Shown here in pieces: positions 45,655 through 63,668 of a stretch of DNA of 64,000 nt. Numbering within the stretch: the first letter of the stretch is position 1; each line of letters begins with the position of its first letter. This stretch comes from Rhodamnia argentea. Lineage: Eukaryota; Streptophyta; Magnoliopsida; Myrtales; Myrtaceae. Below the pieces are notes generated by a model. It had not been told where the DNA came from. It was given only the letters and a program-made list of their open reading frames with translations, and made no database searches. The stretch lies in NCBI RefSeq assembly GCF_020921035.1, contig NC_063158.1, positions 8,228,001 to 8,292,000 of the forward strand, written 5' to 3'. A program made the translations under genes and the position numbers.

Positions 45655-47586
45655 CTACTGGGTTTTGGAACTTATTCGAGTACAAACTCTAGCTTCTCCG
45701 TAGACTTTTCCCGGTTTGCAATAGTATCCCTTGTTGGGTGCGCAATGTGCATCTTGTGAACAAATGCACAGTCCCTCCAGTGCACATCCGTCCCTCACTA
45801 TGCTCGGTCCCTCCTTGAGTCCAAGAACTTGGTCCGTCCATTCGCTGGAAAACAGCCCCATTGGATCATACATCTTCTTCACTTTCAAAAACTCTTGGGC
45901 ACTTTTGTATCTTTTGATCGCTCCATCGAACGCCAAATTCCTATTCTTCCCCCAATGAGGCAGCGCGCCGTACTTGATCAGTGCCATCTGCTCTATTTCT
46001 TCGAGCACGTCTTCGTATAGCCTCGGGCTCAGCGGATTCTTGCTCCTGTAGTAAGTTATGTCGAAGTCTACCGCGTCCTCCTGCTTCCCTAGGTAAGGAC
46101 TAGATGCCTTGACATAGCGCATGAGGATGCCGTTGTAGAGCTCCACTCCGCACAATGCTTTAGGCTCTAGGGTAATGAGTTTTTGGATGTCTTCGATGAA
46201 GCTCTTTACCACGGAGAGTCCGATGCTAAATGTGGTTTGGTGAAAGAACTCGCCCTTGACTCGGGGATCCCATGGACAAGCAGTAATCAGACCGTCTTGG
46301 AAACTGTCCAGGCAAGTGCCCGAGGATTGCAGCCTGTTCTGATACCCAATCACGGGATATCCCGTGAAGATCACACCTAATCAAAATATGCATATACATC
46401 AACGTGAGCGAAATCTCTATAACAATGAACTTCGTTGACGTGCAACTGAATTACTTAGAGCAGGACACGATACCGTTGTTCGTCAACCCATAAGCACCGG
46501 TCTGGAGGGTAGAAGAAATTAGCTTTGCAGTGTTGCATTTCCCGTCAGCATCGTTTACGGACTCTTGCAATTCTTCTGCTAGGGCAACATCATCGGTAAT
46601 GATCAGAAAAAAAAAAGTGTGGCTAGCTAGGCTAACTCAACTTCTAAATCTAGACTAACACTGTTTAATTGATTTACCTGTGGATCTGACCAGTGCCAAC
46701 GTGAGAGAAGGTGTGGAACGGAATGGGGTGGAATCGTAGAGCCCGTTGCCGGATGCGTCAAGACTGACTCGATCGTCAATCCGATAAACTGCCTTTTGTT
46801 GGCTCGGGTACCACATAATGTCCGCAAACTCATGTTGGTTACCAAAACTAGCCGCTTGTTCTCCCAAGTCCGAATCACCCTTGATCGAATACGTTAAGGA
46901 TCGTTTGAAGAGCGGTTGCAACTTCAGGGTTACCTACAATTGTATATCCAACCATCGAAATCAATGTGGTCTTTTTTCTTTCCACGGAAAATTTAAATAT
47001 ACCTAAATCGCTTCAGGTATCCTTTAGACTAGCTCCTCCTGTGGCAATTAAAGCTGATGCATATGATTGGTCTAAGTTTCTATTTCCCTTGGCTGGCCAT
47101 GGACGTAACTTGCTTACTCTACGAAGTGGTACACATGTGACAAACAAAAAGGAAACGGGGGAATAAAAAGTTACATATTCTTCTTCCAAAATAGGATGAA
47201 ATAGAAGCCCAACAAAACTCAAACGTATGATTTGATGAATACGTGTGAAAAGTCGGGAAAATTATAAAAAAAAGTACTAAACTTATTACAATTGTACCAA
47301 TTAGTTTTTAACTTTTTTTTGCTTTTTCAATCCTTAACCTTTTGTAATTATGTTAATTCAGTCCATCCAAGGTAATTTTGGTCGATCGGCTACATCGATG
47401 ATGCCGGCCACCGGGTGATATAATATTTAAATATATTTTCTTTATTTTTTGAATTTTTTATTTTCTTTTTTTTTTCCTTCCCCTTCCCTCTTCTAACTCG
47501 AGCTTGGTGACCGGCCGGAGGCAATGGCTGTCACGAAGGTCCGACGACCAATTGGAGGTACAAGAGGGAAGGGGAAGGAAAAGAAC

Positions 47587-47636
<50 letters not shown>

Positions 47637-49010
47637 GTCTTCGGCCAGCCGGCATCCACGTCAGCGCCAGTAGGTAAAAATTCACCGGACGAACTAAAAT
47701 AACACAATTACAATAAATTTAAGATTGAATCGGCCAAAAATTACAATACATTTATGAGCTTGGTTTCCCTACTGCTCCGGGTAGATCTATTCATAAGTTT
47801 GTGGTGGGGCATTCATTCCTTTGTCTTTACATCACAGCTAGTATCACTCGCCTAGTATATCTAACATTTTCAAAGATGAGAAAAGTGGATGAGAATTTGT
47901 TGGATTTTGGTCTTATAATCGAGGAAGAATAAGTTTAAACATGATGATAATGGATAGTCAGGCGCATAACCCTTTTTGCCGAATCAGGAGTGAAAAAAAC
48001 TTGATGATCAATATGGTGAGAGCGAGCTTTTCCCTTGTCGGGTTCCGGGTTCGAAACTCCCAACTCGGTTTCGCGATTTAAGTAGGGGGCCCCGACGGTG
48101 GGTTCTTGGGCTAGTCCCCCCGAGGTATAGTCGTGGGACGCAGGCCTAAGCCGTCGCGGCCGTGTGGATCCTCGGTTATAAAAAAAAAAAAAAAAATTGA
48201 TGATCAAGGTGATTCTTTCTCTACGGTTTGATTAAAAAAAAAAAAAAACAAAGGACTGGAGAGTAGCTTGTGTACCTGAGAGATGACTCCTAGAACCCCA
48301 AGCGACACTTTGACCGCGTTCATCTCTGCATGGCTGCTCTTCGTATTCGCATCGAGCGTCCTGATCCTGGCGTAACCATCTCCAGGCCCTCCGGGGCTCA
48401 CTATCCGCATCGCCTCCACGTGATCGTGCAAAGCGCTCCCCTTCCCCCACAGGGAGCTGCCATGCGCGCCCGTCCCCAGCATCCCTCCGACCGTCAAACC
48501 CCACCAGTAGGGCGTGTATGGCAGCGCCATCCCCGCCTTGGCAGCCTCCTCGATCAACTGCCTCAGCGTCACCCCTCCCTCCACGCTCATCCTCATCCCT
48601 TCTTGGTCCACCCTCACTATCCCATTCATGTACTTGGTGCTCACCAGCAGCCCCTCCTCCCCGTCTGGACACACCAGCTTCGGGATGCTGTGAGAGAAGC
48701 GCGTCACCACTTTCATCTTCCTCTTGGACCTTGTCGCGTTCCCCACTACCCACGCGAGCTCTTCTTCCGACGTCGGGTATGCCGCGGCCCCTGCTTTGCA
48801 AGTGGTTCGATCTGGGAAGGCCCCGTAGGAATTGGTTATGGTGCAGCCGCTCGAGGTGCATCTGATGGGATCTGCAGGTGGCGTCGCACTCACCGACATG
48901 ATCATGGCAGTCGCAGCTATTACAATAACATGTAGTGAAGCCCATACAGTTTCAGAATCTGGCATGCCCATTTTGAATCCCTTGCTCCAGCAAGGAGATG
49001 TTGGTGTCAT
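45655..49010 (-). CDS. GULLO: L-gulonolactone oxidase-like protein, copy A
   Basis: Secreted-type FAD oxidase of the aldonolactone oxidoreductase family; plant GULLOs oxidise L-gulono-1,4-lactone towards ascorbate, using O2. Four exons: 48276-49010, 46678-46933, 46474-46575 and 45655-46376. All junctions are GT-AG and in phase, 604 residues. A hydrophobic signal segment lies at about 23-43 ([16 protein letters not shown]). The FAD-binding PCMH domain is about 60-245, with the predicted flavin-linking His107 in RFSHS, and [19 protein letters not shown] around 174-192. The C-terminal ALO domain holds [14 protein letters not shown], and a Cys-rich tail ([15 protein letters not shown]) follows. 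The start is the first ATG; the frame before it opens only with GTG. Intron 1 (1.34 kb) holds a MITE, a (TA)n tract and a SINE. Intact; a near twin of copy B. Confidence 0.93.
47250..47760. mobile_element. Foldback MITE of the 'gtcctaaa' family in GULLO-A intron 1
   Basis: The left arm (AGTACTAAACTTATTACAATTGTACC) and inverse right arm (AACACAATTACAATAAATTTAAG...) enclose a GC-rich core (GGTGACCGGCCGGAGG) and a (TA)n microsatellite. Lies between exons 1 and 2 of copy A; absent from the shorter intron 1 of copy B, so it inserted after the duplication or was lost there. Confidence 0.6.
47590..47633. repeat. (TA)n microsatellite
   Basis: About 22 uninterrupted TA units inside the MITE in intron 1. 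Confidence 0.95.
48012..48196 (+). mobile_element. tRNA-derived SINE with 11-bp target duplication
   Basis: A 185-bp element whose head carries an A-box-like TGGTGAGAGCGAG and a B box GGTTCGAAACTCC (pol III internal promoter). It has a GC-rich body and ends in a 17-A tail. Perfect 11-bp repeats TTGATGATCAA flank it (48001-48011 and 48197-48207). It sits just inside intron 1 of GULLO-A, in the opposite orientation to the gene. Confidence 0.9.
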
Positions 49011-51311
49011 CACGAAGGAATCGCACTTTTACTTGCTAGCTTAGATCCTGATTGGAGTTTAAAGGACGTGGAGCGGATCACAAGTTTGGCGTACAAGGGA
49101 ACGTAGGGAAGGACTTAGGAGAGTGGCTGTCAGTAGAGCATTGCTTTTAGGGCTTGGGAGGGCGACTGGGAGTTAGCTTTTAAGGTAAGAATGAATGTAG
49201 ATGGCTCCACCGGAGATGGAACTTGTCGTTTTCGATTGACTCTGCCGGGAAAACAGTTTGGAAGTTATTCGGAAATGTGTACGATAGGATGGTTGGCGGC
49301 AAATTCGAGTCTTGACAGAACGCAGATGGCCGTCAATGTTCATATAATGTGGAACTTGGTGCTCCATTTGCTGGATTAAATAGTGCCACCTGTAGATAAA
49401 AAGGGTGCAAATGCGCATAGCGAGTCACGGCCAAAGTGTATACATGTCTTCACGCTCCATTCTTGCAACCACCACCCACTACATGTTGGGATTATCCATT
49501 TCTGCAGAAATTGTTATCAAGTGCATCATATGGACCTGGGCAAAAGTTCTTGCTACGTGTCGAATCTTTTGTACGCTTTTAGTGGCGCCTGCCACATTAC
49601 TTGTTAAATTATGTCCGTATACCCATATTGGAATTATCTTTGCCTTAATCCTGATTTGCAAAATTATCTCGAAGCTACGTACACATATTGTTGCGTGTGA
49701 CCACAATTATAACAACGCGATATGTTGTGCGGAGGCAAGCAATCGAATAATAAAATAGAAAAATCAAGAAAATAAATTAGACGCCAAATGTCCGTGATTC
49801 GATCATAAAGAGCTACGTTCATGGAAAGAGCAGTAACGAATTTCATTATAGATCAAGCAATACACGGAGATTACAAAACACATTTGAATTACTCAAACAC
49901 TCTCATTTTTTCTCCAATCTCAATTACATCAAATAACCCATAAATATTTAATCCCCGTAATTTCTCATGAAATAATCTTTTAATGTTATAAACGAATTAA
50001 CAACTCTTATACTCACAAGATTTAATCGATTTCAACACTTAAATTCTTAATATAATTCTACCAAATAAGCCCAACGAATAAGCGCTCAACAAACGGTGCT
50101 TCAAAATCTCGTCACGTTGAGTCAAGGACGGCGCTCTAAAGCGGTCGGCACGCGTCTGCTCCCTTAAATAAGCACCCACTCGTTTCCAAAAGAAAAAAGA
50201 GAATAACCCGTGTACAGGAAAGAATCATGATCGAATCACAGCAAAGTCAACTTCTTCACTCCCCTTTATTGCTTTTCGTGGACCGACTCAACGGAGGAGT
50301 TGATTTCCTTTTCTCAATTTCTGAGCAAAACTAAAAACTCCAAAATCAGGCAACATCCGCAAGTCTATTAGGAATCCATATTCACGGAAATATGTCTTAG
50401 ATATCCACACGCACTTTTAGATCAGATTTATTCACGAGTTCAAATTCGAGACATACTGTAACGCAATAGACACACTTGTTACATTTGTTCTCGTTATGTA
50501 ATACTAGCATAAATGCAAACATGTTGTTGTATGATATAGAAATATACCTGCTTCCGGGTAGGGAAGGTTCATCTGGGAACGGGAGAATCCCGCGAGATGT
50601 TAGATGGAGAAATGGCCTTCAGAGTGTGTCATGGTGAAACTTTTCGAACTGGTTTGTTTGTATGCATCACTAACATTAACATAACCCTTGCAAGTCCTAC
50701 GTGACACTGGGCTAAGGTGCGGTGGAAGCGGGTTGCCTTCTTCACGATTTGGTGAGAAGCAAATGTCAACCATCGTTGAAGCAAAGCCAGCTTGCTTCAA
50801 GGACCGTTAGAGAGGACACAGAGGAAAAGTTTTTCTGTGTACAACTTTTTCATTCCTATATGATGAAAGTTTTTCGAATGGGACGTTAAATCGGTATGGT
50901 GAATGATGATAAACAGAAAATAACGAACTCAAATGTTGAAGAAACAGAGATGTAGTCATTGTGAAGATGAGAATAAGACAAGATGCAGTTCGTCTGCTCT
51001 CAAAATCTAAACATGTCCAAAAACTTGATATTGCTCACCGTAGAAATTGTGACCTATTCCAAGATGTTATTGTGTGGGAAGCTTAACTCGAAGGAAAAAA
51101 AAAAGGATGTGAAAAGTTAGCATCAGCCAATATTGAACTTTGTTTCCTTCCATGGCAATCGAGGACTTTCTAATTTCTTGATCACATTCTCCATCCAAAT
51201 GCCATCATGATCTGCGTAGGGACCCACACATTGCACAGTTAATGCGAACAGATGGAGTTGAGCACCTTGGTTTCCACTTTGAAACCCTAGATTGATGAAA
51301 CCAAGTCTTTA
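49011..51311. other. GULLO-A upstream flank and GULLO-B 3' flank
   Basis: 49030-49750 is repeated, diverged, upstream of copies B (54370-55120) and C (60160-60440), including the phrase ACAGTTTGGAAGTTATTCGGA. The part near 50590-50780 matches 55440-55560. 51130-51300 matches the sequences just downstream of copies A and C. It is therefore part of the tandem duplication unit rather than unique promoter DNA. No other gene. Confidence 0.75.
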
Positions 51312-54300
51312 CTATGTTTTGGAACTAATTCGAGTACAAACTCTGGCCTCTTTGTACACTTTTCCTGGTCTGCAAAAGTAGCCCTTGTTGGGTGCACAGT
51401 GTGCATCTTGCGAACAAATGCACAGCCCCTCCAGTGCGCATCCGTCCCTGACCATGCTCGCTCCCTCCTTGAGTCCAAGAACTTGGTCCGTCCATTCGCT
51501 AGAAAACAACCCCAATGGATCATACATCTCCTTCACTTTAAAAAATTCTTGGGCATTTTTGTATCTTTTGATCACTCCGTCGAATGCCAAATTCCTGTTC
51601 TTCCCCCAGTGAGGGAGTGCGTCGTACTTGAAAAGCGCCATCTGTTCTATTTCTTCGAGAACGTCTTCGTATAGCCTCGGGCTCAGCGGATCCTTGCTCC
51701 TGTAGTAAGTGATGTCGAAGTCTACTGCATCCTCCTGCTTGCCCAAGTAAGCACTGGAGGCCTTGACATAACGCATGAGGATGCCGTTGTAGAGCTCCAC
51801 TCCGCACAATGCTTTAGGCTCTAATGCAATGAGTTGCTGGATGTCTTCGATGAAGCTCTTTACCATGGAGAGTCCGACACTAAATGTGGTTTGGTGAAAG
51901 AACTCACCCTTGACACGCGGATCCCATGGACATGCAGTAATCAGATCGTCTTGGAGACTGTCTAGGCATGTGCCTGACGATTGTAGCCTATTGTGATACC
52001 CAATCACTGGATACCCGGTGAAGATGATACCTAATCAAAACATGCATATACATCAACGAGAGCGAAGTCTCTGGAATAGTGGATGCCATGAGGCGCAACT
52101 ATATTAGTTAACTTAGGATGCGATACCGTTGTTTGTCAACCCATAAGCAAAGGACTCGAGGGTAGAAGAAATTAGCTTTGCACCGTTGCATTTCCCGTCT
52201 GCATCGTTCAAGGATTCTTGCAGTTCCTCTGTTAGGGCAACATCATATCAGAGTTCGAAAAAAGGTATAGTTAGGCTAGTTCAACTTCTAAAATCTAGCT
52301 TAACATTGTTTTCTTGATTTACCGGTGGATCTGAGTAGTGCCAAAATGAGAGAAAGTGTGGAGCGGAACGGGGTGAAATCGTACAGCCCGTTACCAGACG
52401 CGTTGAGATTGACTCGATCATCGATGCGATAGACTGCTTTCTGTTGGCTCGGATACCACATAATGTCTGCAAACTCATGTTGGTTACCAAAACTGGACGC
52501 TTGTTCTCCCAAGTTCGAATCACCCATGATGGAGTACGTTAAGGATCGTTTGAATAGCGGTTGCAACTTTAGTGTTACCTTCAATTATATGTACAAATAT
52601 CAAAATCACTATGATCCGTCATTTTAGAGGGGCCCAAATCGTTTCAGGTATCCTTTAAAATCATGAATCATTTAATTATAAGTTGGAATGGACTTAGAAG
52701 TTTGCGGTGGAGGGATCCCCACATTAGTTTATACGTCACAATTTATATCATACGCCTTAAATTTCTACCATTTTCAAACATGATAAAAGTGAATGAGAGT
52801 TTGTTGAATTTTCGGTGGAAGAAATAATCTTAAACTTATTGATAATGGATAGTCAGGCCCATGGCCAAATCAAGAGTAAACGGTGGTTCTTTTTCTACGA
52901 TTGGACAAACATTTTTTTTGGTGATGTAAATACTTCTTCCGACTGTATTGTATACAATTATGAAAAACACCAAAAGTGCTAAAAGTTGTGTATGATGCTC
53001 ACTTTAGTGTCGAAAGTTTTCCTCGGATCACTTAAGTGTCAATTTTTTAAAAAATGATTACTTAAGTATCAACTCGAATATGCTTGATCGGAAATCTGAC
53101 GTGGTATTTTTTTATTAATATATGAAACCGACGTGGCTCGTCGAACGTCTAGTCAGTAAGAAAAAAGTAAAACTTGAAAAATATAATAGAAAATACAAAT
53201 TTAATTAGATTAAAATATATAAAAAAACTAAAATCTCAAAAAAATGATATGTGTACTAGAGGTCCTAAAACTTGTTAGGAAAGTTATATATATATAAAGA
53301 GGATAATATGCAAGTTCACTTAATTATCATCAAGTGATAATCCCAATATCAGGGTTTACCACAAAAAATTCAAAGAAGAAAAGGCACGAGAGACACCGCG
53401 GGGTTTGTCAAGTATTTTATTTTATTAACTCCCATCACAATTGAAGCACTGAAGACAAGGGAAGGGGGAGATATGAGAACTCTGGCACAGAGATTGCAGA
53501 AGAAACGTCAACAAGACGGAGTATGATACATGAGAAGAATAGAAGAGAAGAGACGTAACATAGTGTAAAGACTGGAGAGTAGCTGTACCTGAGAGATGAC
53601 TCCTAGAACCCCAAGCGACACTTTGACCGCGTCCATCTCTGCATGGCTGCTATTCGCGTTCACATCCAGCGTCCTGATCCTGGCGTAACCATCTTCAGGC
53701 CCTCCCGGGATCACTATCCGCATCGCCTCCACGTAATCGTGCACTGCGCTCCCCTTCCCCCATAGGGAGCTGCCATGCGCGCCCGTCCCCAGCATTCCTC
53801 CGACAGTTAAACCCCACCAGTAGGGCGCGTAAGGTAGCGCCATCCCCGCCTTGGCTGCCTCCTCGATCAACTGCCTCAGCGTCACCCCTCCCTCCACGCT
53901 CATCCTCATACCTTCTTGGTCCACCCTCACAATCCTCGTCATGTACTTGGTGCTCACCAGCAGCCCCTCCTCCCCGCCCGGACACACCAGCTTTGGGATG
54001 CTGTGAGAGAAACGGGTCACCACTTTCATCTTCCTCTTGGACCTCGTCGCGTTCCCCACTACCCACACGAGCTCTTCTTCCGACGTCGGGTACGCCGCGG
54101 CCCCTACTTTGCAAGTGCTTCGGTCCGGGAAGGCCCCGTAGGAATTGGTTGTGGTGCAGCCGTTTGAGGTGCATGTGATAGGGTCTGCCGGTGGGGTTGC
54201 ACTCACCGACATGATCATGGCGGTCGTGGCAATTATAATGATATGTAGTGAAGCACATAGCATTCCAGAACCAGACCACCCCAACCGGAACACCTTGCTC

Positions 54301-54326
54301 AAGCAAGGAGATGTTTGCGTCATCAT
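51312..54326 (-). CDS. GULLO: L-gulonolactone oxidase-like protein, copy B
   Basis: Same enzyme type as copy A. Exons 53589-54326, 52323-52578, 52127-52228 and 51312-52030. Exons 2 and 3 are the same size as in copy A, exons 1 and 4 differ by one codon each, and all borders are GT-AG, giving 604 residues. Contains the signal segment ([15 protein letters not shown]), RFSHS flavin-linking motif, [31 protein letters not shown] in the ALO domain and the C-terminal Cys-rich [15 protein letters not shown]. Start: two adjacent ATGs (54326, 54323); 54326 is given. The longer upstream frame starts only with GTG. Intron 1 is about 1.0 kb and lacks the SINE seen in copy A but contains a 'cactttagtg' MITE piece. 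Intact and probably functional. Confidence 0.93.
52960..53290. mobile_element. Partial 'cactttagtg' MITE in GULLO-B intron 1
   Basis: Phrases GCTCACTTTAGTGTCGAAAG, GGATCACTTAAGTGTC and TGATTACTTAAGTATC match the left arm of the element at 28120-28960. The right arm is lost or decayed. Confidence 0.5.
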
Positions 54327-56040
54327 GACTCTGTAGGGAACAGGCTTGTCTGTGGTGGTCAATGCTTCCACCTTCTAGGTAGCTGGCTTAGCCCTTGATT
54401 GTAGTTAAATGAACGTACTCAGGATCGCTAGTTTGGAGTACAAGGGAACGAAGCAATTGTAGCGAGGTGGAAGGACTTCGGAGAGTGGCCGTGCGTATGC
54501 TTTTAAGTAAAGAATGAACGTAGATGGCCCTAGTGGTGGAGAGGGAAATTGTCGACTTGGATTGGCTACGGGGGAGAACAGTTTGGAAGTTATTCGGAGA
54601 TGTGCATCTCGAATGGTTGTGGGCAAACACCAAGTCCTGAGAAAATATATAGAATGGGAGCTGGTGCTCCATTTGCATTGCATCATCCCACGTGTGATTA
54701 AAGTTTGGAATGCGCATAGGGAGAGATTAACTGCTAAGGGAAATGCTTTTCTGATGTGTGGGTCTACGGTTGAGATTGAACAGTGCCTCACCGCGTGTTT
54801 TGCCTAAAACACTCATTGATTAGTAGATCAAATGGTCAGAAATAACTGACGATCTTGTCAGGCTAACAACTTACAACCGCCAAACCCACCTAAGACAAAC
54901 CCTTTGCAACTTAATTTCCAAATTTAATAGGCCTACAAAGTTAACTTATAAAATGACATGAAAAAGTTCTTATTAAATGTCAAAAACGTTTGACAAAAAA
55001 AAAGGGTCAAAAATTGTGTAGATCAATATTGGAATATCTCACCTTAATCCTGCTCTTTAAATTTAACTAAAAGTTATGTACGCATACGATTGCGTGCAAC
55101 TAAAATAATAACAACGTAAAAAACAGAGACACTTGTTCTCATTACGTAATACTAGCATATACGCGAGCACCTTATGTGTACAATGGAGAAAGATACGTGC
55201 TTCCGAATTAAGTGTTAGATTTAGAGAAGTGAATAATGGAATGCTTAATTTACAATTAGGCACAAGGCCGATATAAGTATACATATAAAGAAGGGTATAA
55301 ACGTAAATACATATACTAAAGGAAAAACCCTAGTCCTAATATATATAATATATCTAACATTAAGAAGGTTAAGCTACAAACGGAAGAATTGTGCAAGATG
55401 TTCTTTGTTACTCGGAGAAAATGGACTAGAAGGGCCCCAATGGTAAAGCTTTTCAAACTCTTCATTTAAATACATAGTACTAGCATTAAGGTGTAATGAA
55501 TGATAAGTGGTAGCGTGTTGCCCTCTTCGCTATTTGGTGAGGAGGTAATGTCGATTGATCCCCCGGAAGAGAATGTACAGCCAAACGAATGAAGAAGAAG
55601 AAGAAGAAGCCCATTTGGAGTTTCAACACATACCAATGGTATGCCCCCGTATTTCTTTGCGGATTTATAGCCAAATAGTTAATATGATCCCGCCAACCAC
55701 GTTTTCATTCCAAAAGACCCAAGTCTTGTTGGTTGAAAAGTTCTTTCATTCCAAAAGAGAGGCTTTCTTTCTTGCTTCACGGTTAGATCTCTTTATAATC
55801 TTTGTTAAATTCTTGTATGTGATGGAAGTCTTTTGAATGCGACGTTAAGTTGGTATCGCGAATAATGATAAACAAAAAATAACAACCTCAAATGTGGTTC
55901 CTTTAAGTTGAAGTTCTCATCGAAAACTTGCGATCGATTGTAAGATGTTTTATTGCTTAGAAAGTTTAACTTGAAGGAAAAATGATTTGGAAAAGGAAAA
56001 TGTTTTCATTATAGTCCGATAGTACTATCATTTTTTTTCC
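54327..56040. other. GULLO-B upstream flank (duplicated)
   Basis: Matches the upstream flanks of copies A and C (see 49011-51311). A (GAA)n run lies at about 55592-55609. No gene found. Confidence 0.6.
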
Positions 56041-57400
56041 GATCGTAAATCCACACACCATCACCGTGTGTTTTGCATAAAGAACTCATTAATTGAAAAA
56101 TCGTGGGGTCGGAAATAATGACAAGACCGTCAAACCGTCAGGCTAGCAATTTCCAAAATACCATCACCAAATCCTTTTCTGTTCACTAGCACTTCATTTT
56201 TTTTTTTGGGTCCAAACTAGCACTTCATTTGGTAAGGTTGTTTGTGAGATAGAAAAAGGGTTAAAATCTTAAAAGTGAACTTTAAGAGATAAAATAGAAT
56301 TATGACTTTACATATTTGCCTATTTGTACCGCAACAACCCGATTCGACGAGGGCAGGGGGTGATTGCTGAGGCTAGAAGGTCCAAATAAGGAGTGACTCC
56401 TGGCAGACTTCTAGGATGGTGAAAAGGGGCATGAATCAACCGAACTATGCACCGAATATGGAGAGAGCAATTATGGAATATATATGCGAAAACTGGAATT
56501 AACTTTCAGGGGCACCTTTTAACAAAATGACAATGGTTAGCTTTAGAACTTCAAAGTTAAGCATGCTCAAGTAGGAGTATTCATAGGATGAGCGACCTCC
56601 TGGGAAGGTGTTCACCTAGCACCCGTATGTCAAAAGACAAAATCGTGAGACACGGTATGGGACGAGCCAAAGCAGACAATATCTCGGTGAGTTAAATCCA
56701 GGATGCCATAGGTACAATGTGGATAAACTAATTAATCAAGAATTATTTTGGAGAAGTAAATGGATTGAGATCTCTGTAAAGTGGGAGATGATCATGTCCT
56801 GTACGTAACGGGAACAAAAAATCCATAAAAAATAAAGAGACGTGGGACATGTGTAGTTCATGCAAATGAAAAATGAAAGATGGTCAGGAAAGAAAAGACG
56901 GGAAACAGTTTGATCGGTTGGGGGCAGGACGGGTACAAAACTTAGCTCCCAATTCTCATGAGGTTGCAGAGAACGCAAGTGAAAAATCTAGGTTGGATTC
57001 TGGAGGCCACAAAATATTGTGGGCCTTGCAATGTCAATGCAGTGGTGGCCAATTCTGAAAATCTGGTATGAGAAGGTTTACAAAAACCGTATGGGAAGGT
57101 TTTTCATTAAGTGTCAAATATGATGTATAGATGTTCACTTCCACCTTGCCACATCACATCACTTGTTAAATTATCTGATTATGTTTGTAAATCAGTATTG
57201 AGAAATCTTACCTTAGTCCTGGTTTTTAAATTTAACTAAAACCTATGCACATATATAATTACATGTGACTAAAATAATAACGATGTGAAAATAGAGACGC
57301 TTTTGCTCATTACATAATACTGGCGAAGATGCACATGCTTTGCTGCGTGCATGCAAAAAATTGACATTCGAAAAATTGTCCAATATCTTCTTACATTTTA
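56041..57400 (-). pseudogene. Ghost unit of the GULLO tandem array (flank only)
   Basis: 56060-56170 matches 54793-54890 upstream of copy B (shared CACCG(C/T)GTGTTTTGC and GTCAGGCTA(A/G)CAA). 57190-57330 matches 55030-55150 and 49640-49720 (shared CCTTAATCCTG/CCTTAGTCCTG, TTTAAATTTAACTAAAA, GACTAAAATAATAAC). These are duplication-unit flanks but no GULLO exon lies beside them, so one unit has lost its gene or only the flank was copied. Confidence 0.6.
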
Positions 57401-57514
57401 ACTGAAACAAACCAAAAGGGAAATATATTAATCTAACATGTTGAGGACTTGTCCACCAGAAAATCACATAAATGTTGCCCAATAACGAGAGCTATGTGAA
57501 CAATGAAATAATTA

Positions 57515-58458
57515 GACTCCGTTTGTTTCACGGAAAATGTTTTTTAAGAAAACATTTTCCCCAATTTCCGATGTTTGGGGGGTGAAAAATGAGTGGTCAA
57601 CGGAAAATGTTTTTGTAAAACTGAGGAAAATAATTTCCATTTTGTAAAACTGGAAATCATTTTCCCAATCTTTGTCGACTTCTGAAGAGGAGGTCATCTG
57701 CATCATGTACGCCAAAATATCACCTTCAACAGACTCAACTCGAGCATCTCCCCATTCAGCTCCCCTTCGCAATCTGATTCTTGATTGGGTTGATGAGCGT
57801 TGACTTCCCGAAGCCGCTGGTGCCTAAGACGGCGAGGATCTCGCCCTCGTGAGCCTCGCTGGAGATGTCGTTGACCAGGACCTTGCTTCGGGTGAAGAGG
57901 CTCTCCCTGACGACAGGGTCCTCGACAGCGATGGAGTCGAGGCGGCGGAGTCGAGCCGGCTACGGTGCAGGAGAGGAGCGAGGACAGCCGACATTACGGC
58001 GAACCTTCATGCTGTATGTGAGGCTGTTGAAGTGGAGGACCAAAGGGAGGGAGCGTGGGTCAAGGCTGACATCGACATCGAGGGTGTTGTGGTAGACGGG
58101 CGTCTTGCCACTGTTGCCAGTGGCGTGCTTGCGAGCATCGCAAACGCACTTGAGGAGCTGAGCGAGGGTCGGCAAGGGAGTGGCAGCCGCGCGGGGAAGG
58201 GAGGATTTTACTGGTGAGGAAATCTGGGTTTGGGATTGAGGGAATTTGCGATTTAGGGCTAGGGGATTTGAGTAGGGTTTGGTCTGATTGAGAGAGATTT
58301 GGGGAAATATTTTTTTCTTTCCAAACAATGAAAAATAATTTCCTATTCATTTTCATGTTTCGGCCAAACGTCGGAAAAGTATAATCATTTTCTTGGAAAA
58401 TGACTTCTTAGAAAATATTTTCCACAAATGTCGCATTTTTCGTGAAACAAACGGAGCC
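57515..58458. mobile_element. PIF/Harbinger-type element carrying an ABCG gene fragment
   Basis: A 944-bp element with terminal inverted repeats G(A/G)CTCCGTTTGTTTCACG, extended by GGAAAATG...TTTTCC subterminal motifs, and flanked by 3-bp TTA duplications (57512-57514, 58459-58461), as expected for PIF/Harbinger. No transposase. The centre (about 57740-58210) is GC-rich coding-like DNA from an ABC transporter gene. It lies immediately 3' of the GULLO pseudogene. Confidence 0.8.
57740..58215 (-). pseudogene. Captured ABCG half-transporter N-terminal fragment
   Basis: On the minus strand the first part reads TLAQLLKCVCDARKHATG, then VYHNTLDVDVS and LPLVLHFNSLTYSMKV, the N-terminal style of the ABCG1/2/6/16/20 group. 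After an in-frame stop the same strand continues with [20 protein letters not shown] and [10 protein letters not shown], i.e. the Walker A region with GASGSGKST altered to GTSGFGKST. It breaks off shortly after Walker A at the inner edge of the transposon arm. Signature motif, Walker B and membrane domain are missing. A dead fragment of a cutin/suberin-type lipid-exporter gene. Confidence 0.75.
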
Positions 58459-58669
58459 TTAGGCAACTGTAACTCTAGACCAAGAACAAGGATAGTGCAT
58501 CTTGAACTAGTTTCCCCACAAGGCAATCGTGCACATTCTAATTTCTTGATCCCATTCTCCATCCAAATACATCATGATACCCGTACCGACGCAAACCTTG
58601 TACCATAAATACGGACAGACGGAGTTGAGTTCCACTTTGAGACTCAAGAGTGATGAAATTAAGTCTTTC

Positions 58670-60118
58670 CTATGTTTTGGAACTAATTCTGAGTACAAAC
58701 TCTAGCCTCTCGGTTGACTTTTCCTTGTTGGGTGCACAATGTGCATCCTGTGAACAAAATGCACAATCCCTGGAGGGCACATCCGTCCCTGACTATGCTC
58801 GCACCCTATTTGAGTCCAAGAACTTGGTAATGTCCATTCGCTAGAAGAAAACAGTCCTAGCGGATCAAACATCTCCTTCACTTTAAAAAATTCTCGGCCT
58901 TTTCTGTATCTTTTGATCGCTCCCTCGAACACCAAATTCCTGTTCTTGCCCCAGTGAGGTAGTCTGCCATACCTGAAAAGCCCCATCTGTTCTCTTTCTT
59001 CGAGCGAGTCTTGGTACAGCATCGGGCTGAACGGATCCTTGATCCTGCTTGGCCAGGTAAGCACCAGAGCCCTTGAAGTTTGATGAACATTCTTTTCTTT
59101 TCTTTTTGTGATGTAAATATTTCTTCTGAGTATAGCGCATATAATCAAAATAACTGAAAATGTACCGCAACAAGATAGACAGCATAACGAAGGAGGGATA
59201 GGTTTGCCACATATATGAAACAAGACAAAGGCACGAGAGACACCACAAGGTTCATCTATTTCTATCTTAATTTAATCACTGAAGACAAGGGAAGGGTGAG
59301 ATATGAGAAGGATAACACAGAGATTGCGGAAGAAGACAAGTCAACAAGACGGGAGTGTGATTTGCGTGAGGGCATAGAAGAGACAGAGAGCCTGAGAGAT
59401 GACTCCTAGAACCCCAAGCGACGCTATGACTGCCTCCATCTCTGCATGAGTGCTTTTTGTATTCACATCCAGCGTCCTGATCCTGGCGTAACCATCTCCA
59501 GGGGATCACCATCCGCATCGCCTCCACGTAATCGTGCAACGCACTCCCCTTCCCCCATAGGGAGTTGCCATGCGCGCCCGTCCCCAGCATCCCTCCGACT
59601 GTCAAACCCCACCAGTAGGGCCTGTATGGCAGCGCCATCCCCGCCTTGGCAGCCTCCTCGATCAACTGCCTCAGCGTCACCCCTCCTTCCACGGTCATCC
59701 TCATCCCTTCTTGGTCCACCCTCACTATCGTCTTCAGGTACTTGGTGCTCACCAGCAGCTCCTCCTCCCCATCCGGTGCACCAGCTTCGAGATGCTGAGA
59801 GAGAAACGTGTCGCCACTTTCATCTTCCTCCTGGACCTCATTGCGTTCCCCACTACCCACACGAGCTCTTCTTCCAGCATCGGGTATGCTGTGGCCCCTA
59901 CTTTGCACGTGCTTCGGTCCGGAAAGGCCCCACAGGAATTGGTTGTGGTGCAGCCGCTCGAGGTGCATATCTGATCGGATCTGCCGTGGGCTTGCACTGG
60001 CCAACATGGTCATGGCCGTCGTGGCCAATACAATGATATGTAGTGAAGCCCTTACCGTTCCAGAGCCCGATCTCCCCAACCTGAACACCTTGCTCAAACA
60101 AGGAGATGGTTACGTCAT
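58670..60118 (-). pseudogene. L-gulonolactone oxidase-like pseudogene, copy C
   Basis: Degenerate third GULLO copy. Exon 1 remnant 59392-60118: ATG is followed by a stop at the third codon (60110-60112, CAA to TAA relative to copy B), then frame changes near 59985 and 59780 and an 8-bp loss near 59500. Between these the [17 protein letters not shown] and [17 protein letters not shown] motifs survive. The exon-1 splice donor is gone: a deletion of about 25 bp leaves CAG followed by GC. Exons 2 and 3 and most of exon 4 are deleted; the remnant (about 58670-59085) keeps [19 protein letters not shown] and FDPLGLFSS. The intron-1 edge resembles that of copy B rather than A. Certainly non-functional. 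Confidence 0.9.
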
Positions 60119-60632
60119 CGCGAATGAATTAAACAGGCTTGGCTGTGGTGCTGGATCCTTCCACTTTCTGGTATAGCCGACCGATTTGGATTAGCTTTGT
60201 GGGGAGAACAGTTTGGAAGTTATTCGGACATGTGTGGTGGCAAATGCAAGTGTCGACAAAAAGAAGACGGCCAACGTATATATTTAGATATAATGAGACT
60301 TGGTGCTCCTCTCAGATTGCATACTGCCGCGAGTGATTAAAGAAGGGTGCAGTGCGCATAGTGAGCGATAGCAAAAGTGCCTCCATGTCTTTATCCGGGG
60401 TTTAAACTATCTTTTCAAAGATCCCCTGCCAATAACTATGATTCTAATCGTGACCATCTCTCCGGTCCCTCGATCTTTCAGAGAATTTCCGAATATCCCC
60501 GTCCCAAGAACTATGTTTCCAAACATGATTTCTCTCCTGAATCTCGATATTTCCTCAACTTTTTTTTGTCCTGACTTGGCCAATTATACTTCTTTTCAAC
60601 TTCAATATCTCGATCTTTCAAAGAATCTTTTC
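60119..60632. other. Upstream flank of GULLO copy C
   Basis: Homologous to the upstream flanks of copies A and B (CAGTTTGGAAGTTATTCGGA at about 60209). It is interrupted by the CACTA element and resumes at 63669. Confidence 0.7.
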
Positions 60633-61401
60633 CACTAAAAAAAAACAAGGATTTAGTGACGAATTTTGCCACGAAAAATTTTGCAAAATTCGTCGCTAAT
60701 TGACTTTTGCGACGAATTTTTCCACGAAAAAAAATTCGTGGCTAATCCGGCGTCACAAAATTTAGCGACGAAAAAAAAAATTCGTGACTAATTAGCGACG
60801 AATTTTGCGACGAATACCTATCCGTGGCTAATTAGCGACGAAAATTTTTCCTTGTTAATTAGTTACGAATTTTCCCACGAAAATAAATTTCGTCGCTAAA
60901 GTTAGCGACCAAAACACAATGTTTCGTCGCTAAATTTAGCGTATTTGGATTAGCCACGAATTTTTTTTCGTGGCAAAATTCGTCACAAAACCCAATTTAG
61001 CGACGAAATTTTATTTTTTTCATATGATAAAATCGTTTTTTTACTTTTCGATTTTAAATTTAATTAAAAGAAAAATTAATTTCTGCAATTTATATTTAAC
61101 ATTGATTAAGCACTTAATAATATCACGGTTCCGTAGGAGTCGGCGGGTTCCTCGAGTTGGGTCAACTTAACGGGTTCGGGTCGCGAGGCTCACGATTCCA
61201 CAATCGACGCTAGTTGGCCGACGCGCCACGGATGGCTAGGGCTCGGATAGTGGCTGGACAACGGCGCCGGGGCTGATGGGGAAGATGGCACGGGACTGCG
61301 GCGGGCTCGTCGTCCTAACCCACAGCAAGCAAGCAAGCACTCGAAATAGAAATATTCATCGATGCTATGTATTCAGAGGACCCGTTCTTTCTTCTTCGTA
61401 C

Positions 61402-61408
61402 TATAAAT
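61402..61408 (+). promoter_or_regulatory. TATA box of the captured gene
   Basis: TATAAAT 93 nt before the captured start codon at 61495, so the capture seems to include a core promoter and leader, not just coding DNA. Confidence 0.6.
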
Positions 61409-61494
61409 GCGCTGCTTTGATCCGACTCTCTAATCCTCTCTTCCCTTGTAGAAGCGATCAGAACCAGCCACCACCGCCTTTCTCGAGAAAAGAA

Positions 61495-61827
61495 ATGGAC
61501 TCGGCGTCGTCCCACAAGTTCGATGTCGTCAAGGCCGAGAAAGCCAAGGCCATGCGCAGGTACCAAAGGACCCGCAAGCTCAGGATCCTCGCCCACGCCC
61601 TCGAGCTCCTCCTCGCCCTGGTCCTGCTCTCCTGGTACTATTCCGGGCTCTCGGCCGCCGCGGGCTACTTCCTCCGCCACCTCGCCATCCTCCTCGCGAA
61701 GCCCCTCGTCGTCTTTCTCACCGGCACGTCGGGTTCACGAGCAGGGAGCTCAAATCGTCGTCGCGGCGGGCTCGTCGTCAGATCTGTGGGTCTCGGCCAG
61801 CTCACGTGGTTGCAGGTGGCTAGGTAA
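61495..61827 (+). pseudogene. Captured DUF4408-like gene fragment, chimeric 3' end
   Basis: The frame begins MDSASSHKFDVVKAEKAKAMRRYQR style and continues with a hydrophobic helix (LELLLALVLLSWYYSG) and a second one (LRHLAILLAKPLVVFL). This is the order seen in the N-terminal DUF4408 region of plant membrane-associated small proteins. After about residue 76 the sequence turns into Gly/Arg/Ser-rich wording unrelated to that family and stops at 61827, so the 3' part is transposon or other captured DNA. It could still be transcribed and yield a 110-residue chimera. The family name is from pattern memory. Confidence 0.6.
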
Positions 61828-62024
61828 CGGTGATCGGTGGCGGCGGAGCTTAGATGGAGGAGGGTCGTGGGCGAAGGTCCCGGGTTTACGGCAACCAGGC
61901 GACGATCTCAGCTGGTTGCGGCTCGCGCGAGGCCGGCTGGCCGTGAGGCGTGACTGGCGACGGGAGTGGACGGAGGGTGGTGGTGCAGGCTGTGGTGGTC
62001 GGGTGGAGGTGGGTCACTCGGCTG

Positions 62025-62190
62025 AAGAAGAAAAAGAAAGGAAGAACAAGAAGAAAAAGAAAGGAAGAAGATGCAGAAGCAAGGAAGAACAAGAAGAAAA
62101 AAGAAAGGAAGAAGATGCAGAAGCAAGGAAGAACAAGAAGAAAAAGGAAGAAGACGCGGCAGTAGAAAAAGAAAGGAAGATAAGGAAGTC
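62025..62190 (+). repeat. AG-rich imperfect tandem repeat inside CACTA
   Basis: Units of about 45-50 bp around GGAAGAAGATGCAGAAGCAAGGAAGAACAAGAAG, roughly three copies. Open in all frames of the plus strand, giving Lys/Glu/Arg-rich artefact proteins. Confidence 0.75.
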
Positions 62191-63668
62191 GTACCAGCAG
62201 ACTGAAGACGTCGTACAAGCATGAGAGAGAGAGGGCAGGAGGCTTTTAAAAAGTACCGCCAAAAGAAAGATTAAAAAGATAAGAGAGAGAAATGTAGCAA
62301 CGAAAAAAATAATTTGTGGCTTATTTAGCGACGAACAAAACAATTCGTTGCTAATTTAGCAACGAAAAAGCTAATTCGTCACTAAATTAGTGACGGAAAA
62401 AAAATTCGTCGCTAATATTTTCTTTTTTATTTTTATTCATATCATGTTAGCGACGAATAATACATTTCGTCGCTAAATTAGCAACGAAAAAATTATTTTC
62501 GTCGCTAAATTGAAATATTTTCTTTTTTATTTTTATTCAAAGTGCTAATTTTGCCACGAACAAAATTGTTCATCGCTAAATTAGCGATGAAAAAGCTAAT
62601 TCGTTGCTAATTTTAATATTTTATTTTTTACTTTTATTTTTATTTATAGCATATTAGCGACGAAAAACGAATTTCGTTGCTAAATTAGCGACGACAAAGT
62701 TAATTCGTCGCTAAATTGAATATTTTATTTTTTTATATTTATATAAAATTAGCGACGAAATATGATTCGTCATTAATTTTAATATTTTATTTCTTATTTC
62801 TATTCATAGTGCTAATTTTGCGACGAAATCAACGTTTGTCACTAATTAGTGACGAGCGGAAATTTTCGTCTCTAAATGATAGCAACAAATTAGTGACGAA
62901 AAACGTGGTTCGTCGCTAATTTGTGACGAAATTTGATTTTCGTTGCTAATTAGCAACCAAAAACATTGCTCGTCGCTAATTATTTTTTATTTTTATTGTG
63001 ATTTTTATTTATATCATATTAGCGACGCAAAATAAATTTCGTTGCTACCTTAGCGACGAAAAAGCTAATTCGTCGCTAAATTGACCATTTTCTTTTTTAT
63101 TTTTATTTCTGTCATATTAGCGACAAAAAGAATGGTTCGTCGGTAATTTTAATATTTTCTTTGTTATTTTTATTCAAAGTGCTAATTTTGCGACGAAAAT
63201 AAAAGTTCGTCGCTAATTAGCGACAAACGTTGATTTTCGTTGCTAACTTTTAAGAGAAGAATTTGCGACAAAAAAAAAATATTCGTCACTAATTGGCGAC
63301 AAAACCTATTGTCGTCGCAAAGGAGATTACGATGATAGATTTTTCGTGGCTATTTTCATCGCAAATTAGTGACGAATTATTTTTTGTGGCTATATTCATT
63401 GCTAATTAGCAACGAAATTTTTTCCGTGGCTATATTCGTCGCTAATTAGCGACGAAATTGTTTCCGTGGCTATATTCGTCGCTAATTAGCGACGGATTTT
63501 TTTTCGTGGCTATATTCGTCGCTAATTAGCGACTAATTTTTTCGTCGCTATTGTCATCACAAATAGCGATGAATATTCATTTTGTCGCTATTTTTGTCGG
63601 AAATTAGCAACGAATTTTTTTCGTCACAAATTTTTCGTGGCTAAATCCATGTTTTTTTGTAGTGTTCC

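Follow-up and report, generated by a model that had tools for sequence, protein, structure and literature searches.

The window, the whole 64,000-nucleotide stretch analysed, corresponds to C9:8228001-8292000 in the 346.7-Mb genome of Rhodamnia argentea; positions without a contig name are counted from its first base. Tandem gulonolactone-oxidase-like genes occupy positions 45655-60097 of the minus strand. The copy at 58702-60097 appears to be frameshifted, and a CACTA element is located about 0.5 kb before its start. The region upstream of the gulonolactone-oxidase-like copy 54304-55113 is free of the element and colinear with pieces of both element flanks, in an alignment that does not run base by base at the insertion point. 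The element is non-autonomous, has a length of 3,032 bp (60633-63664, equivalent to C9:8288633-8291664), starts with CACTA, and ends with TAGTG. An earlier note on this DNA had placed it at 60633-63665, with the correct start and an end one base too far. The element and its borders comprise the following features:

60630-60632, no strand: left target site duplication, TTC, adjoining the 5′ terminus
60633-63664, plus strand: Pack-CACTA, a non-autonomous CACTA element that has taken up host DNA, recognised by its termini, target site duplication and relatives, with no Transposase_21 match
60633-60656, plus strand: 5′ terminal inverted repeat, matching the 3′ end at 22 of 24 bases
60650-61020, no strand: left subterminal repeats of the GCGACGAA type, in motif arrays
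62290-63640, no strand: right subterminal repeats, in motif arrays
63641-63664, minus strand: 3′ terminal inverted repeat, pairing with the 5′ end
63665-63667, no strand: right target site duplication, TTC, adjoining the 3′ terminus

The 5′ terminus CACTAAAAAAAAACAAGGATTTAG and the reverse-complemented 3′ end CACTACAAAAAAACATGGATTTAG share 22 of 24 bases, and TTC abuts both borders as a perfect 3-bp target site duplication; both had been recognised in the earlier note. The subterminal repeats described there are likewise present, as 28 of the 30 exact GCGACGAA and TTCGTCGC motifs of the window lie inside the element, arrayed near both ends. The terminus pattern CACTACAAAAAAANNNGGATTTAGCNACG occurs 360 times in the genome when up to two mismatches are permitted, and the reversed-pattern control does not occur at all; therefore, the pattern represents a real transposon end. 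None of the 112 Transposase_21 matches in the genome falls within C9:8288633-8291664. The element thus combines CACTA terminal inverted repeats, a 3-bp target site duplication and subterminal repeats with the absence of a transposase; in addition, it contains host coding DNA that has a separate donor gene, and the composite is found at several sites. The 3.0-kb element is a Pack-CACTA that carries a host gene's promoter region and initial 77 codons.

The centre of the element is GC-rich and contains a TATA-like sequence ACTATAAAT (CTATAAAT from position 61401), a leader, and an ATG-initiated frame starting at 61495, in agreement with the earlier description. It can be divided into native, filler and captured parts:

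61130-61301, plus strand: left part of the native element centre, common to sister elements without the capture
61298-61314, plus strand: filler of 17 bp at the left junction, with the same sequence as 61763-61779
61317-61726, plus strand: captured host piece of 410 bp, comprising 178 bp upstream of the C2 parent coding sequence and its first 232 bp
61401-61408, plus strand: TATA-like box CTATAAAT, 94 bp 5′ of the ATG and the same in the parent
61495-61827, plus strand: ATG-initiated frame of 110 codons and a stop, with 77 parental codons followed by a tail from the native element
61727-62290, plus strand: right part of the native element centre, with a GAA-rich repeat at 62024-62188
61763-61779, plus strand: native copy of the 17-mer and likely template of the filler, present in 11 of 14 sisters with at most two mismatches

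In 90-base windows starting at 61495-61645, the GC content of the frame at codon positions 1, 2 and 3 is 0.47-0.70, 0.37-0.50 and 0.90-0.97, respectively. This pattern is lost in 90-base windows that span the junction, and its ending there indicates that the frame derives from a real coding sequence. The stretch of the frame after 61731 (GFTSRELKSSS) was considered as the host gene resuming after an internal deletion; this was rejected, as sister elements show that the stretch is native.

A search for a parent gene in the plant's own genome had been set in advance as the test of the capture idea, and the idea survived it, as a second locus was found on contig C2. The search with 61130-62230 produced at least 73 matches; 40 of 75 candidates were scored, and all counts are lower bounds. 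Five full-length composites are among the scored matches, namely the window's own element and copies with 95, 94, 92 and 91% identity. Only one scored locus, C2:8212422-8212835, covers just positions 188-597 of the query, at 93% identity. The other scored matches comprise parts of the two sides of this interval, with the exception of L006 on C3, a composite with a deletion that lies at the same place as L031. The C2 locus contains an intact, uninterrupted open reading frame of 275 amino acids that extends far past the capture border. Upstream of the ATG, 171 of 178 positions are identical between the window and the C2 parent, as are 216 of 232 in the coding sequence.

The earlier note had named 61130-62230 as the stretch to align in search of the parent gene. 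Of this stretch, the 410 bp at 61317-61726 are host-derived; the remainder also occurs in sister elements and is therefore native sequence or filler. The captured part had also been called a first exon. Since the parent is one uninterrupted open reading frame, it is instead the 5′ part of an apparently intronless gene. Transfer from the gene to the element is preferred over the opposite direction because the C2 reading frame continues past the junction and the sister elements are without the piece.

The resemblance of the frame to DUF4408 proteins is weak. The captured frame has no match to Pfam DUF4408 at E values up to 10 with the HMMER filters on, and the whole C2 parent protein reaches 16.2 bits against this family (PF14364, residues 67-86), below the cut-off of 22. 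The parent is missing from the 18 DUF4408 matches in the genome, and its comparison with the longest open reading frames of those 18 loci gives 7.2 bits at best. The parent protein is therefore DUF4408-like at most. Searched by itself, the captured frame matched nothing in the collections examined, and the bacterial and viral collections contain no relative of it, as expected for a plant sequence.

Twenty stretches of the genome were fetched for comparison: four full composites, one internally deleted composite (L031), the parent, and 14 sister elements. None of the 14 sisters contains the captured piece. Ten have a native centre, in which 146-203 bp of different sequence correspond in position to the filler plus 410-bp piece of the composites, and four (L034, L036, L038 and L039) carry another insert. 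The junctions are identical in all five full composites, which are distributed over contigs C1, C2, C3 and C9. In a tree of the shared arms, a split with 100% ultrafast-bootstrap support places the six composites on one side and the other 14 elements on the opposite one. Among the composites, four show perfect target site duplications, all different (TTC, TCC, ATC and CTT). Across the family, the script used, which favoured ends with equal duplications, called a perfect one in 14 of the 20 members examined. The two composites without a clean duplication are L028, which lost approximately 120 bp of its 3′ end, and L031, which is flanked by TCT and TCC. The identical junctions, the single clade and the different duplications indicate one capture followed by movement: the host piece was captured once, and the composite then spread to the six sites known. 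The earlier proposal that a CACTA element captured a host promoter region together with an N-terminus is thus borne out by the intact parent elsewhere, the piece-free sisters, the identical junctions in five copies, and the single clade.

The lack of a database match for the frame alone, in the collections tried, is what chance resemblance or an assembly artefact would predict. Against either stand the 93% identity to one gene across 410 bp and the presence of five full composites on C1, C2, C3 and C9. With L031 left aside, four of the composites have perfect target site duplications that differ from one another, and we assign this explanation a negligible probability.

The left border of the captured piece provides information about how the capture may have occurred. 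The 17 bp at 61298-61314 exactly repeat 61763-61779. The left copy is present, with at most two mismatches, in all five full composites and in none of the 14 sisters, four of which lack the corresponding left-arm segment. The right copy belongs to the native element and was found in 11 of the 14 sisters at the same threshold. At the switch point, GGCGG occurs, as read from the alignment, both in the left arm of the native element and in the right-arm template. Such a filler, which derives from the right arm of the same element, speaks for repair by template switching. According to this mechanism, which we infer from one 17-bp filler and a short microhomology in GC-rich sequence, a break in the element centre would have been repaired by synthesis that proceeded from the left arm to 17 bp of the right arm, then to the C2 gene, and then to the right arm again. 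Whatever the mechanism, the 410-bp host piece replaced about 150-200 bp in the centre of a pre-existing element, one time. For animal Pack-TIRs, PMC8277862 outlines a proposal of template switching that involves microhomology, and filler sequences at transposon excisions have been described in rice, according to the account in PMC4423477.

Alternatively, two neighbouring CACTA insertions flanking the gene could have fused with the loss of their inner ends, which is the published Pack-CACTA model as outlined in PMC8903248 and PMC13317346, where it is attributed to Catoni et al. 2019. However, both arms of the composite reach the native centre and only about 150-200 bp are missing between them, so that fusion would require two complementary truncations. 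Furthermore, the filler corresponds to right-arm sequence of the element itself, and in the surroundings of the parent (C2:8200000-8225500) CACTA relatives are absent, apart from a weak match of 69 bp and a single isolated motif. Fusion would therefore be a less natural explanation of the composite than template switching, and we consider it distinctly unlikely. It is very probable that a Pack-CACTA element gained the 410-bp C2 piece once, by template-switching repair, and was then mobilised in trans, with the frame probably a passenger.

The family contains a second class of host insert. The sister elements L034 (C7:22172155), L036 (C10:21901429), L038 (C8:7090280) and L039 (C5:17697325) carry a piece that matches C7:6191820-6192482 in two blocks of 84 and 93% identity. 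A frame located approximately 1.7 kb from the matched part of the C7 donor locus matches RING2 chains in the PDB (best E value 1.1e-11), and Pfam named no family in three pieces of the locus. The RING2 match indicates that the donor is probably a RING1/RING2-type ubiquitin-ligase gene. As read from the alignment, the insert consists of an exon-like frame and intron-like sequence in antisense orientation to the element. Capture of the whole 661-bp insert was considered and rejected, since its right end proved to be native centre. In the tree, the four sisters do not form a well-supported group, with support of 39-67 at deeper nodes. The different donors of the two classes show that host DNA entered the centre of this family at least twice.

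The supply of transposase was approached through the positions of the termini. Among 100 of the 360 termini, listed as far as contig C8, ten face a Transposase_21 match within 10 kb, with 79 of the 112 matches used for the pairing. Nine of the ten have the same orientation, and nine are positioned about 2.5-4.0 kb from the match. Random placement gave a mean of 0.23 such termini and a maximum of three in 1000 trials. Termini near transposase genes are thus far above chance, and it is likely that there are helper elements that share the ends of the composite, the link being made by the 29-base terminus and the distance. A search with the left 498 bp of the element, in which 40 of 564 candidates were scored, yielded at least 143 matches, and none of those listed coincides with any of the ten transposase-facing places. 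Mobilisation of the composite in trans would have relied on transposase from related CACTA elements of full size that share its termini.

In the five full composites, the frame remains open for 110, 110, 101, 110 and 111 codons. Selection for a functional chimeric membrane peptide would account for this openness and for the retention of the parent's TATA box together with the greater part of its leader. However, the 77 captured codons differ by 20 changes among the five copies, of which 19 are replacements; within the hydrophobic stretch, Leu to Pro and Trp to Arg are among them. Moreover, the tail of the frame is native element sequence, and the frame is also open 5′ of the ATG, for 85 codons in four copies and for 29 in the fifth, so that openness is cheap here. 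We regard such a peptide as extremely unlikely, and the expression of a chimeric membrane-helix peptide suggested in the earlier note is unsupported, given the 19 replacements. The captured frame is probably a passenger sequence with no protein function.

The distribution of the changes is odd. Only one of the 20 affects a third codon position (expected share 0.39, P = 0.0007) and one is silent (expected 0.36, P = 0.0015); the third-position bias was found post hoc after the inspection of six frames, and its P values are uncorrected. The sixth copy (L031) adds two changes, both at position 1 or 2 according to the alignment. Simple neutral drift predicts otherwise than this near-invariance of third positions. 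Recombination between copies may play a part, because sites 42, 44 and 47 conflict with the tree. One base out of register, a long frame of 234-289 codons is open in the five copies. It was rejected as a hidden coding frame, as across the 250 alignment columns that follow on the right the changes show an even distribution among the three codon positions (14, 14 and 15).

The parental TATA box is kept in all five full composites, so transcription of the captured piece from its own putative promoter is possible. At 117 positions of the element begins a 21-mer exactly shared with the parent locus, and the longest exact run is 60 bp, so small RNAs that match both could in principle arise. The captured promoter piece might therefore yield RNA or siRNA that silences the parent gene, in line with maize, for which the account in PMC13317346 reports sequences captured by transposons as sources of siRNAs acting on donor genes. 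Against this, the parent open reading frame is intact, and we consider silencing unlikely. For a passenger frame, the most to be expected would be transcription from the captured promoter or a role as a source of parent-matching small RNAs. A wider scheme would make the break-prone GC-rich centre a cargo-exchange site, into which template-switching repair writes host pieces (a promoter with an N-terminus, or an antisense RING1/RING2-like exon with an intron), the promoter piece then evolving in a replacement-biased manner (19:1) as a mobile peptide or RNA; we consider this scheme very unlikely.

The capture described here is clear but ordinary in kind and is an additional example of the known Pack-CACTA type. 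The Pack-CACTA elements of Arabidopsis, rice and maize, as outlined in PMC8903248, similarly have CACTA termini, a 3-bp target site duplication, no transposase, a piece of host coding sequence, and several copies. In contrast to that outline, the present composite took a promoter region and a start codon together, has a filler at one junction, and had its native centre replaced with no visible fusion of neighbours. Tgm-Express1 of soybean is also a CACTA element with host gene pieces; it is described in PMC1947982 as one 5.7-kb element with five gene fragments and demonstrated chimeric transcripts, whereas here each element has one host piece in the two classes seen and is known from its sequence. 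The captures in Chenopodium CACTA elements, as presented in PMC8978399, are likewise short host gene pieces, positioned upstream of a transposase domain. Here, the 3-kb element is without a transposase, and the capture can be placed on a tree with piece-free sisters. Animal Pack-TIRs (PMC8277862), for which gap filling and template switching are outlined, resemble the composite in capture with microhomology and subsequent multicopy spread; they belong to animal hosts, and here the likely source of the filler can be named within the same element. Among the papers listed on CACTA capture, Pack-CACTA, DUF4408, CACTA in Myrtaceae, and CACTA with filler or gap repair, the titles and abstract openings name no such family with this parent.

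The capture record demonstrates no new function. One genome preserves the parent, piece-free elements, composites, an independent second capture and possible helper transposons, and the filler permits a proposed order of repair steps, which bears on how plant Pack-type elements pick up genes. Elsewhere in the family, the elements L037 and L043 (C1:24.378 and 24.399 Mb), located about 21 kb apart, have the same 10-base flanks and the same target site duplication, TAA, which suggests a local duplication that carried the element.
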